A stretch of 23,853 nt of DNA from positions 1 through 23,853 of the IMG/VR virus record IMGVR_UViG_3300022602_000427; one strand, given 5' to 3'. The notes beneath the pieces are model-generated. The model saw only the letters and a program-made list of their open reading frames with translations, searched no databases and was not told the origin of the DNA. Below, piece by piece: positions 10,658-20,245 of the stretch. The translations under genes were made by a program, and so were the position numbers. How positions within the stretch are numbered: the first letter of the stretch is position 1; each line of letters opens with the position of its first letter. The DNA is from a virus.

Positions 10658-10822
10658 GTGTCTAAATTTGTAGGTAAGTTTCGTAAAGATAGGGATACTT
10701 TTGAGGACTATAATCAATCTCAAAAGAAACCAAAGAAATTCAAACAAAATAAAAATTTGAAACATTTTGAGGATGTGGAAGAAACCTTCCGCCAACCACG
10801 AAACCGAAAACCGTTGTATTAA
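10658..10822 (+). CDS. 54-residue basic protein, GTG start
   Basis: ACGGAGGAA at 10642-10650 is a near-perfect Shine-Dalgarno with a 7-nt spacer to GTG 10658, which decides the start. The product is Lys/Arg/Asn-rich, hydrophilic and likely disordered (FVGKFRKDRD ... RNRKPLY). It sits 15 nt after the DUF6433-like gene and would be co-transcribed. A nucleic-acid-binding role is possible from charge alone. Confidence 0.72.
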   Translation: MSKFVGKFRKDRDTFEDYNQSQKKPKKFKQNKNLKHFEDVEETFRQPRNRKPLY

Positions 10823-10835
10823 TACAACACTGAGC

Positions 10836-11368: not shown

Positions 11369-11519
11369 GTACACAAACCAACTTCAACGTAAACCAACAG
11401 AGTACCAGACCGAGTTAAATATGATTGATGATGTAACCAAGCAATGGGCTATCATGTCCTTGTATGAGAAAGACCTAGAAGCTTACCATGAGTTGAAAGA
11501 AAAGAATGACAGTCTATAA
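11361..11519 (+). CDS. 52-residue acidic helical protein
   Basis: It starts at ATG 11361 inside the end of the previous gene and ends 14 nt into the AbrB-like gene. The product is largely helical (MIDDVTKQWAIMSLYEKDLEAYHELKEK from residue 21 on), so a small dimeric helix is possible. No strong Shine-Dalgarno was found, so coupling to the upstream gene is likely. Confidence 0.6.
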   Translation: MSEYTNQLQRKPTEYQTELNMIDDVTKQWAIMSLYEKDLEAYHELKEKNDSL

Positions 11520-11682
11520 TTATGAAGATGTATTTCAGGATATTCCTGGCGATTCTGCTAATGTAATATTCAATATTCCTCCAGAGATGCTTGAAGAAAC
11601 TGGTTGGAAAGAAGGTGATACGATTAAAATTGAACTAATTGACGGTGCATTACACCTAAGGAAAAAAGATGGAACTGATTAA
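11506..11682 (+). CDS. AbrB/MazE-like small protein
   Basis: Fifty-eight residues. The core (NIPPEMLEETGWKEGDTIKI, then a strand around ELIDGALHLRKK) matches the swapped-hairpin AbrB fold used by transcription factors and antitoxins. It overlaps its neighbours on both sides, 14 nt upstream and 14 nt into the VWA protein gene. No toxin of a known type lies next to it, so a DNA-binding or scaffold role is more likely than a toxin-antitoxin pair. The fold is inferred from sequence pattern. Confidence 0.68.
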   Translation: MTVYNYEDVFQDIPGDSANVIFNIPPEMLEETGWKEGDTIKIELIDGALHLRKKDGTD

Positions 11683-16276: not shown

Positions 16277-17026
16277 TTAAACTCCTTGAATAGTAAATGT
16301 TGGATATTTCACAAAACCAGTAGTATCCTTTTTAGCCTTGCCTTTGGCATATAAACCAACCACTACACCTTTTGGATCTAGAAAGCGAAGGTCGGATTCG
16401 TCGCCATTATATACTGGCAAACCCATATACGTGGCAGGCATTGGCTGTGTTTTCTTAATACCGAACACCACTGCTATATTGTAGCCTTGCTTAATGGCTT
16501 CTGCCACATCGCTGTCGTTACCGTCAGCAGCTGAAAATGTAAGCGTGTAATTGGGGATATGCTTGAATTTACGGCCTAGGATCTTGGTGTAATCATAGAA
16601 TTGGACCTCTGGAAAGGCTTCGAATATATTGGCATACGTTACACCATTACGGACACATTCGTATTTTTCCCAAGCAAGGTCACTAGTACCATTGGGGCGA
16701 TATACAGGAACCAAGCCTAACCGCTTAGACTGCTTTAAGCCTAATTCTATATCCTTAACCAATAATGCCATAAAAGTAGCACGATCCTGGAAGAATAGGT
16801 TGGTTTTGCGGATTCTCGCTTGTTGGATTACATTGGTATTCTCGCCTTTTTTAAACATACCGCCACGTCCTGCAAGGTTCAAGCAAGCCGCAATACAACC
16901 TGGAGTGGCCTTAGCGCATGTATTCTTACCAGATAAACTGGCTGGAGCTAAGTGGAGAATGTAAGTGTTGAAACCTTGAGCGATACCTTTAAGGATCTTT
17001 GGATTGCCTGTGGAGAGTAAATTCAT
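16277..17026 (-). CDS. GP88/DUF7227-like protein
   Basis: A 249-residue protein matching, as I recall it, the 'gene product 88' (GP88/DUF7227) family of phages. The N-terminal LLSTGNPKILKG, Cys37-x6-Cys44-x3-Cys48 (in CAKATPGCIAACLN), then GRGGMFKKGE are typical. Later blocks (VYRPNGTSD, VQFYDYTK, LTFSAADGND, NIAVVFG, DLRFLDPKGVVVGLYAKGK) alternate strand and loop as in a beta/alpha barrel. The family has no established activity; the three Cys could bind metal or an Fe-S cluster (inference). It is on the minus strand with its own extended -10 promoter and a terminator, away from the core genes. Confidence 0.8.
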   Translation of the reverse strand: MNLLSTGNPKILKGIAQGFNTYILHLAPASLSGKNTCAKATPGCIAACLNLAGRGGMFKKGENTNVIQQARIRKTNLFFQDRATFMALLVKDIELGLKQSKRLGLVPVYRPNGTSDLAWEKYECVRNGVTYANIFEAFPEVQFYDYTKILGRKFKHIPNYTLTFSAADGNDSDVAEAIKQGYNIAVVFGIKKTQPMPATYMGLPVYNGDESDLRFLDPKGVVVGLYAKGKAKKDTTGFVKYPTFTIQGV

Positions 17027-17051: not shown

Positions 17052-17108
17052 TGGAGTAATTATACCAGATTAGGAGGAAATGGCAAGCGTTATCAATAAT
17101 ACTTGACC
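17052..17108 (-). repeat. 57-bp minus-strand promoter cassette, copy 1
   Basis: The first 18 nt (17052-17069, including the -10) and the last 28 nt (17081-17108, from the -35 outward) are identical to 17287-17304 and 17316-17343. Only the central 11 nt differ. It drives the GP88-like gene. Confidence 0.9.
17059..17086 (-). promoter_or_regulatory. promoter of the GP88-like gene
   Basis: On the minus strand: TTGCCA (complement of 17081-17086), a 16-nt spacer, and an extended -10 TGGTATAAT with the hexamer at 17059-17064. RNA would begin about 26 nt before the start codon at 17026. Confidence 0.8.
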
Positions 17109-17119
17109 AATTTACTGGA

Positions 17120-17260
17120 TTATTCCTCTGTTACCTCAATATAACGAGCAACCGTCAAAGCTTCGCCTTCCTCCAGCTGTTCCACTATACTATCAAATAT
17201 AAAACCAGGGGTGGAACCTTCAACCAATACCACCTCAATTTCCACTTTATATTTTACCAT
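17120..17260 (-). CDS. 46-residue acidic protein, minus strand
   Basis: Minus-strand ATG (complement of 17258-17260) to TAA. AAAAAGGAAATAAAATG at the start is identical over 17 nt to the starts at 17565 and 18047 on the plus strand. The product is a small alpha/beta protein with an N-terminal strand (KYKVEIEVVLVEG), a helix and a C-terminal strand (TVARYIEV). It lies between the two copies of the 57-bp promoter cassette. The function is unknown. Confidence 0.72.
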   Translation of the reverse strand: MVKYKVEIEVVLVEGSTPGFIFDSIVEQLEEGEALTVARYIEVTEE

Positions 17261-17286
17261 TTTATTTCCTTTTTGTTTTCAATTTA

Positions 17287-17343
17287 TGGAGTAATTATAC
17301 CAGAATCCCAGGATTTGGCAAGCGTTATCAATAATACTTGACC
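17287..17343 (-). repeat. 57-bp minus-strand promoter cassette, copy 2
   Basis: Same layout and length as 17052-17108: identical over the outer 18 and 28 nt, different in the central 11 nt. It drives the 46-residue gene. Its outer 12 nt (17332-17343) are also the first 12 nt of a plus-strand 32-bp repeat, so the two divergent promoters share this element. Confidence 0.9.
17294..17321 (-). promoter_or_regulatory. promoter of the 46-residue minus gene
   Basis: On the minus strand: TTGCCA (complement of 17316-17321), a 16-nt spacer, extended -10 TGGTATAAT with the hexamer at 17294-17299. Same geometry as the promoter at 17059-17086. Confidence 0.8.
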
Positions 17344-17363
17344 GGAATAGCTGAATACTTTTG
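17332..17363 (+). repeat. 32-bp direct repeat, copy 1
   Basis: Identical to 17465-17496. It starts with TAATACTTGACC and ends with GAATACTTTTG. It ends exactly 7 nt before the -35 element at 17371. Candidate UP element or regulator site. Confidence 0.9.
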
Positions 17364-17370
17364 ACGTATA

Positions 17371-17398
17371 TTGCCAAATTTTCGGATTCTGGTATAAT
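17371..17398 (+). promoter_or_regulatory. early promoter P1
   Basis: TTGCCA, a 16-nt spacer, extended -10 TGGTATAAT ending 17398, followed by GGAT. Preceded at 7 nt by the 32-bp repeat. Confidence 0.8.
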
Positions 17399-17464
17399 GG
17401 ATGTATTCGAAAGCAGGCCTGGGGTGGACGTGGAGGCTGGTCTTATATTTTATAACCTAGGAGA

Positions 17465-17496
17465 TAATACTTGACCGGAATAGCTGAATACTTTTG
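17465..17496 (+). repeat. 32-bp direct repeat, copy 2
   Basis: Perfect copy of 17332-17363, 133 nt downstream. It again ends 7 nt before a -35 element (17504). Sequence similarity continues weakly into the promoter. Confidence 0.9.
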
Positions 17497-17503
17497 TCTT
17501 ATA

Positions 17504-17531
17504 TTGACATTTTCTAGGATTTTGTTATAAT
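17504..17531 (+). promoter_or_regulatory. early promoter P2
   Basis: Consensus TTGACA, a 16-nt spacer, and extended -10 TGTTATAAT ending 17531. It lies 33 nt before the ATG at 17565. Confidence 0.78.
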
Positions 17532-17714: not shown

Positions 17715-17742
17715 TTGCCAAATCCACCAAATCTGTTAGAAT
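17715..17742 (+). promoter_or_regulatory. early promoter upstream of 17767 gene
   Basis: TTGCCA at 17715-17720, a 16-nt spacer, extended -10 TGTTAGAAT ending 17742. The inverted repeat sits immediately upstream with the same 7-nt gap seen for the 32-bp repeats. Confidence 0.65.
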
Positions 17743-17967: not shown

Positions 17968-17970
17968 GCA

Positions 17971-18040
17971 AGGTAGAATCTAGGTATAATTCAGGTAAAA
18001 TTTCAGGTAAGATTTTAGGTAAAATTTCAGGTAAAAAGGA
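17971..18040 (+). repeat. six tandem AGGTAnAATTTC repeats
   Basis: Units start at 17971, 17982, 17993, 18005, 18017 and 18029 and are 11-12 nt long. Core AGGTA(G/T/A)AAT, with the last unit becoming the ribosome-binding site AAAAAGGA of the 18047 gene. Several units contain -10-like hexamers (TAGAAT, TATAAT, TAAAAT). A weak -35 (TTTAAG, 17963-17968) lies 16 nt before the TATAAT at 17985. Confidence 0.85.
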
Positions 18041-18046
18041 AATAAA

Positions 18047-18334
18047 ATGTCAGTTATTGAAAATTTAGGTATCAAAGGCTTGTCAACCAGTGCCAAAAGA
18101 GAATTAATCAAGGAATTAAAAGAATCCATCCGCATTGAGATGGCATTCCGTAGAGACCTTAAGATTGCCGCCAAGGTACTGAAAGCACAAAATGCTCAGT
18201 TAAGGAAAGAGGTAGCAATTAATAAAGCTAGAGCAAAATTAGAGAAGCTCTTAGCTCCAGTCGGTTCTAAAGCTCTCAAAGCAAACCGCAAACCATCTAA
18301 AGCAATAGTGGTTTCTGGTGGTGTTCAGGTATAA
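18047..18334 (+). CDS. basic helical protein
   Basis: A 95-residue Lys/Arg/Ala/Leu-rich protein, probably a long helix or coiled coil (RELIKELKESIRIEMAFRR, then KVLKAQNAQLRKEVAINKAR), with a Ser/Lys tail. It has no Cys or Trp. The strong 17-nt ribosome-binding cassette is fused to the tandem repeat upstream. A DNA-binding or scaffolding role is possible from charge. Not recognised. Confidence 0.75.
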   Translation: MSVIENLGIKGLSTSAKRELIKELKESIRIEMAFRRDLKIAAKVLKAQNAQLRKEVAINKARAKLEKLLAPVGSKALKANRKPSKAIVVSGGVQV

Positions 18335-19102: not shown

Positions 19103-19287
19103 TAGCAAAGTACCCTATTGAGGCATTGGAACAATTCCGTAAGTTGGAAGCATCACAAGGTAGATATTTTAAAATTCGGTATCGTGGACCTAGGAATACG
19201 GTGTTGGATAAGGGTCGTAGTCGTATGAATAGAGCAAGCACTTGTCTTAAGGCTAATGCGGTCTATTTTGCGGTGTATGAATACTAG
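19099..19287 (+). CDS. 62-residue basic protein
   Basis: Starts in an ATGA overlap with GGGAGG upstream. The product is Arg/Lys-rich in the middle (FKIRYRGPRNTVLDKGRSRM) between an N-terminal helix and C-terminal hydrophobic strands (NAVYFAVYEY). It is strongly basic next to a strongly acidic neighbour. Not recognised. Confidence 0.68.
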   Translation: MIAKYPIEALEQFRKLEASQGRYFKIRYRGPRNTVLDKGRSRMNRASTCLKANAVYFAVYEY

Positions 19288-19318
19288 ACCGGAACAATGG
19301 AGAACTAAAGTATTCAGG

Positions 19319-19346
19319 TTGCCAAATTCTGGTATTCTGGTATAAT
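19319..19346 (+). promoter_or_regulatory. early promoter upstream of 19373 gene
   Basis: TTGCCA at 19319-19324, a 16-nt spacer, extended -10 TGGTATAAT ending 19346, then AGAT. CTAAAGTATTC just upstream (19306-19316) is the complement-orientation form of the GAATACTTT element near other promoters. Confidence 0.82.
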
Positions 19347-20042: not shown

Positions 20043-20234
20043 ATGATTAAATTAAGAGAAACTACAAAATGGGATGTACCTGTCGCTAATGGCATTTATA
20101 TCTTTGAAAGTAAACCAACTGGTCGTACAGGTAAGGCCATTGGTTTTATAGCCAAAGGTGCCAAAGAGCCAAAGATGTTCAGCAAGCCCTTGACAATTGA
20201 TTTTAAATTTAGAACCTTTGAGGTTGTAAAATAA
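20043..20234 (+). CDS. 63-residue basic hypothetical protein
   Basis: ATG 20043, 15 nt after the previous stop, with only a weak ribosome-binding site (GAGTG). The product is basic and beta-rich (VANGIYIFESKPTGRTGKAI, then PLTIDFKFRTFEVV). Not recognised. The next promoter begins 12 nt after the stop. Confidence 0.68.
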   Translation: MIKLRETTKWDVPVANGIYIFESKPTGRTGKAIGFIAKGAKEPKMFSKPLTIDFKFRTFEVVK

Positions 20235-20245
20235 CAACACAATGC

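Follow-up and report, generated by a model that had tools for sequence, protein, structure and literature searches.

This locus raises the question of why two neighboring promoters of a virus should each carry the same block of DNA upstream, and what might read that block. The window, by which we mean the whole 23,853-base stretch of virus record IMGVR_UViG_3300022602_000427 that was analyzed, was described in an earlier note as holding a perfect 32-bp repeat placed 7 nt before two tandem promoters and apparently kept there by selection. The identity is real, but the repeat had been started one base late: sequence comparison within the window gives exact identity over 33 nt between 17331-17363 and 17464-17496. 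The 7-nt gap was correctly read, with both copies ending at that distance from a -35 (TTGCCA at 17371; TTGACA at 17504). The elements of the locus are as follows, alpha and beta being our names for two types of half-site.

17331..17363, plus strand: repeat copy 1 (33 nt), exact repeat
17464..17496, plus strand: repeat copy 2 (33 nt), exact repeat
17333..17343, plus strand: alpha half-site AATACTTGACC of copy 1, an IscR type-1-like half (by consensus and position)
17466..17476, plus strand: alpha half-site AATACTTGACC of copy 2, an IscR type-1-like half (by consensus and position)
17352..17367, plus strand: degenerate beta-type right half of copy 1, TGAATACTTTTGACGT (by position and consensus)
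17485..17500, plus strand: degenerate beta-type right half of copy 2, TGAATACTTTTGTCTT (by position and consensus)
17371..17398, plus strand: promoter P3, TTGCCA-N16-TATAAT, extended -10
17504..17531, plus strand: promoter P4, TTGACA-N16-TATAAT, extended -10
17294..17321, minus strand: promoter P2, divergent from P3 and sharing copy 1
17059..17086, minus strand: promoter P1 of the GP88-family gene 16277-17026
17099..17123, minus strand: the window's best IscR type-1-like 25-mer (4 mismatches), upstream of P1
17668..17710, plus strand: 43-bp beta-beta inverted repeat upstream of promoter 17715-17742
19280..19314, plus strand: 35-bp alpha-beta element, a relative of the block, upstream of promoter 19319-19346
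17400..17445, plus strand: conserved leader with which the P3 transcript begins (by conservation across phage contigs)

The 33-nt repeat is the core of a longer duplication of 68 nt (17331-17398 and 17464-17531, 87% identical) that includes both promoters. Between the two units, identity is 33/33 in the block, 21/28 in the promoters, and 7/30 in the 30 nt on either outer side. Since the same tandem pair in the closest relatives, L085 and L083, has upstream blocks that have diverged (30 and 17 of 41 nt identical, respectively), the exact 33-nt identity probably stems from a recent duplication or conversion and is a poor sign of selection. Selection would be seen instead in the alpha half and its position, and in this sense part of the earlier claim stands: the block, taken apart from the core promoter, behaves as a control element that is conserved and keeps a fixed position relative to the -35. 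The first 12 nt of the block, TAATACTTGACC, recur exactly at 17097-17108, as previously noted; an exact search finds three occurrences in the window, this being the third, and no others. No further copy of the block's second half is present in the window at up to three mismatches (0 expected in shuffles). A further, diverged copy of the block, missed in the earlier note, lies upstream of the promoter at 19319.

Six promoters of the same style are clustered in the window, at 17086(-), 17321(-), 17371(+), 17504(+), 17715(+), and 19319(+), sharing TTGCCA or TTGACA, a 16-bp spacer, and a TG before TATAAT or TAGAAT; P3 and P4 both combine the 16-bp spacer with an extended -10 TG and TATAAT. The -35s of 17321(-) and 17371(+) are 49 bp apart, a gap that copy 1 occupies; in L085, the counterpart distance is 40 bp. 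With a single element between divergent -35s, one factor could act both ways, which supports, as a possibility, the earlier suggestion that both directions are under common control.

The exact 25-nt block had no match in viral contigs, and related loci were gathered via the GP88-family protein, the 95-aa protein, and the leader; all were viral contigs, many of them large. What is conserved among them is a positional module, in which the half-site AATACTTGACC stands 24-26 nt before the -35 and faces a second half-site, and a family of large T4-type phages from freshwater carries this element at fixed distances before dozens of its promoters. With alpha sites counted at up to one mismatch and promoters called from -35 and -10 alone, 102/145 alpha sites in the related phages' loci lie 10-80 nt upstream of a promoter, compared with 9.3% of positions; since the phages counted are related to one another, the statistical significance of this contrast should not be read at face value. 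In complete-size genomes, exact alpha sites are mostly confined to one region of ~1-10 kb. The element is thus anchored to promoters and mostly to one region per phage genome, and it is not the randomly dispersed repeat that the earlier note had named as a contrary outcome.

The spacing of the halves follows a strict grammar. Among 853 non-redundant promoters, the alpha-left half (a 13-mer) ends 24-26 nt before the -35 in 43/46 cases, the alpha-right half ends 1-3 or 9-11 nt before it in 33/41, and the beta-right half ends 3-4 nt before it. Paired halves have outer lengths of 27 (9 cases), 35-36 (24), and 43-44 (21), with no others. The 27-bp alpha-alpha core reads AATASTYGACC-N5-GGTCRASTATT, with GACC nearly invariant (94-100% per base). 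The -35 of element-bearing promoters also leans towards the non-consensus TTGCCA (92:29, against 137:263 in other promoters). Because the gaps to the -35 and the outer lengths are fixed and the elements are anchored to promoters, we take these positions to be characteristic of an operator that is read jointly with RNA polymerase. Other promoters are preceded by a second dyad, GTTGT-N6-ACAAC (10813-10828 and 20223-20238 in the window). It occurs at 151 sites in the related loci (spacing of 6 in 147/151; 3' end commonly 7 or 14-17 nt short of the -35; ~12 expected) and may belong to a second regulon, whose promoters have TTGACA.

The 27-bp phage core matches the IscR type 1 site, for which the published consensus is ATASYYGACTRWWWYAGTCRRSTAT (PMC3899308). 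A blind pattern search with the alpha-alpha core against 399 bacterial genomes, of the order of a Comamonadaceae metagenome-assembled genome (MAG), returned 59 sites (reversed control, 23). When all 59 were read with their flanks, 14 were found 0-150 bp upstream of an IscR homologue and five more at ~850 bp; the chance expectation for matches so placed before iscR is far below one. One IscR among these homologues has the C-x5-C-x5-C-x2-H cluster ligands. In the other direction, the type 1 consensus at up to four mismatches is found at 22 phage promoters, versus one in shuffles. E. coli iscR has ATAGTTGACCAATTTACTCGGGAAT, and an alpha-like half, ATAGTTGACC, lies within the iscR sites of E. coli and P. 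aeruginosa. Like the type 1 sites of bacterial isc operons, then, the phage elements are 25-27-bp inverted repeats with ATASYYGAC half-sites, and the phage core, used blindly, picks out bacterial iscR promoters. They differ in standing clear of the -35 on its upstream side, in often being half alpha and half beta, and in having GACC/GGTC next to the center, against GACT/AGTC in the E. coli consensus. The IscR consensus does not account for the beta half, which has no host counterpart so far. Within the window, the best site (17099-17123) has 4 mismatches to the consensus and both repeat copies have 6, all but one of these in or towards the right half. As their left half is consensus and their right half poor, predicted IscR binding at copies 1 and 2 is less certain than at 17099-17123.

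No Rrf2/IscR protein was found in 15 phage records, several of them fragments in which the gene could be missed, while it is present in four bacterial genomes, which makes the host's own IscR the most likely binder. We hold with moderate confidence that host IscR binds these sites as upstream operators of phage promoters, most likely in an activating role, and that it couples the gene cluster to iron-sulfur (Fe-S) state. Each copy would be the upstream operator of a phage sigma70-type promoter, in which the consensus IscR type-1 half-site AATACTTGACC and a variant second one are set a constant distance away from the -35. The host's iron-sulfur regulator IscR would bind this operator wholly upstream of the -35, with the center of the core ~16 or 24 nt before it, which places the center near -50 or -58 relative to the predicted start. 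Once bound, it would most likely aid the host RNA polymerase, in both directions at divergent promoters, and the phage gene cluster, presumably transcribed early, would be coupled to the Fe-S state of the host.

The direction of the effect is suggested by where the site lies. At 8 of 13 host iscR promoters examined, the best predicted -35 starts with a TTGA that belongs to the site, a placement in which IscR would block the -35 and repress. The phage site lies wholly upstream of the -35, at two discrete distances ~8 bp apart, which suggests activation; this position, together with the weaker -35 TTGCCA, is why we favor an IscR that aids RNA polymerase. Counting against the IscR reading as a whole are that type 1 sites are known mostly as repressing, that the beta half falls outside the IscR consensus, and that GACC/GGTC replaces GACT/AGTC. 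Type 1 sites are classically repressor sites (PMC3899308), and host IscR might bind the phage sites and repress, or the sites might be decoys, multiplied by phage replication, that soak up IscR and so release the host isc operon from repression in infection. We consider this unlikely: in contrast to the majority of the host iscR sites inspected, the phage sites are clear of the -35 and -10, and they keep to two set positions with respect to the -35, a precision that decoys would not require.

Alternatively, the element may be the operator of a phage-encoded DNA-binding protein, an activator or a repressor that shuts off early genes, and resemble an IscR site by coincidence. The concentration of sites in mostly one region of phage genomes, the lack so far of a host counterpart for the beta half, and the many proteins of this phage group without assignment (most of them) would all fit such a protein. 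We nevertheless find this quite unlikely: the same core stands at bacterial iscR promoters, RHH_1 and HTH_3 searches for binder candidates in the phage group gave no match, and no candidate is common to all site-bearing phages. ORF 11506-11682 encodes a 58-aa MazE/AbrB-like protein with no visible toxin partner that only some relatives have; as a binder it was rejected, being absent from 5/9 records, including complete-size genomes with alpha sites. The 95-aa protein (18047-18334) was likewise rejected, since it is absent from the site-bearing genomes G003 and G006. A MotA search, run without a positive control, was empty. The small early proteins proposed earlier as binders are therefore not supported, and neither is the alpha-CTD of host RNA polymerase; host IscR, the strongest candidate, was absent from the earlier proposals. 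A plain UP element of a strong T4-type early promoter, duplicated along with its promoter and bound by no specific factor, is very unlikely. In its favor, the duplication takes in the promoters, T4 early promoters combine UP, -35, TGn, and -10 with more upstream consensus (PMC2988021), and GAGAACTTTTTTCTTATA directly precedes the -35 in some relatives. Against it, UP elements are not inverted repeats of fixed length, do not keep G and C almost constant at set positions, and do not coincide in sequence with iscR operators. A short A/T stretch (TATA) stands before the -35 here, and the conserved part contains GACC.

Among the closest known systems, T4 early promoters share a strong -35, TGn, TATAAT, and conserved upstream sequence, and they too belong to phages with a T4-type capsid protein. 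Their upstream consensus has been described as UP elements plus unexplained bits (PMC2988021), whereas the upstream sequence here is a specific inverted repeat of fixed length. In T4 middle promoters a MotA box replaces the -35, which is present at every promoter here, and mycobacteriophage-type stoperators are repressor sites scattered genome-wide outside promoters, unlike these promoter-anchored sites, which in each genome are mostly confined to a single region. An analogous case of a host regulator acting on T4-type phage genes is already known, PhoB in cyanophages, where such genes are under the host PhoBR system (PMC10976474). Both cases involve sites for a host stress regulator in T4-type phages; here, the regulator would be IscR, which senses Fe-S, and the element is composite and stands at many promoters of one cluster. 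In the literature searched, which was partially covered, we found neither a link between IscR and phage promoters nor IscR sites in a fixed grammar. More tentatively, a group of T4-type freshwater phages may have placed one gene cluster under host IscR by means of fixed-length composite operators; a site that serves repression in the host would thereby have been converted to activation from upstream. If true, this would tie infection by widespread uncultured freshwater T4-type phages to the iron-sulfur and oxidative state of the host. The element also offers a definite starting point in the search for regulation in T4 relatives without recognizable middle promoters. Middle promoters have been reported missing in Methylophilales phage Melnitz (PMC9004378).

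The window fragment ends short of the capsid gene, and its membership in the T4 superfamily rests on complete-size relatives of 166-177 kb, in which the T4-type capsid protein Gp23 was found in 6/6 (E ~1e-145). The host is likely betaproteobacterial, because the nearest isolate by capsid protein is Melnitz (66%) and the nearest by ThyX is Limnohabitans phage DC31. Alpha, beta, and the leader were found neither in the 96 of 141.5 kb of Melnitz nor in the 48 of 76 kb of DC31 that were searched. The promoters of Melnitz (L136, L137) carry a different common motif, GCCTTGACATTTGTTATGAAAACATGTATACT, together with an inverted repeat within the spacer. Contig L123 of a Bacteroidetes MAG resembles a phage of this group, and all IscR-like palindromes of that 2.2-Mb assembly are located on it; for these two reasons, L123 is probably a mis-binned phage.

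The transcripts of P3 and its counterparts begin with a conserved leader of 46 nt, YATTCGAAAGCARNNCTGGGRTGSACRC...CTG, directly after the -10. It is kept in at least 15 phage contigs (L012, L083, L085, L087, L090, L100, L105-L108, L111, L112, L114-L116, L118, and L123, the last with two copies) and is the same across divergent phages, whichever gene comes next. In bacterial genomes, it was found in one phage contig within a MAG, the other two matches being chance ones in coding DNA. A structured RNA was considered and rejected, as the leader matches no Rfam family and has no stable common fold; a weak miRNA match in the Rfam search is the inverted promoter pair. The leader may act in cis on RNA polymerase, or it may be a small RNA. 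Further downstream, at 17970-18040, a short tandem array with a 12-nt step repeats ribosome-site-like AGGTAAAATTTC units before the 95-aa ORF. On the minus strand, the start of the P2 transcript (17259-17306, TATAAT...CATAAATTGA...AAAAAGGA) is 88% identical over ~50 nt to a T5 promoter region present in many T5-like phages (E 4e-6).
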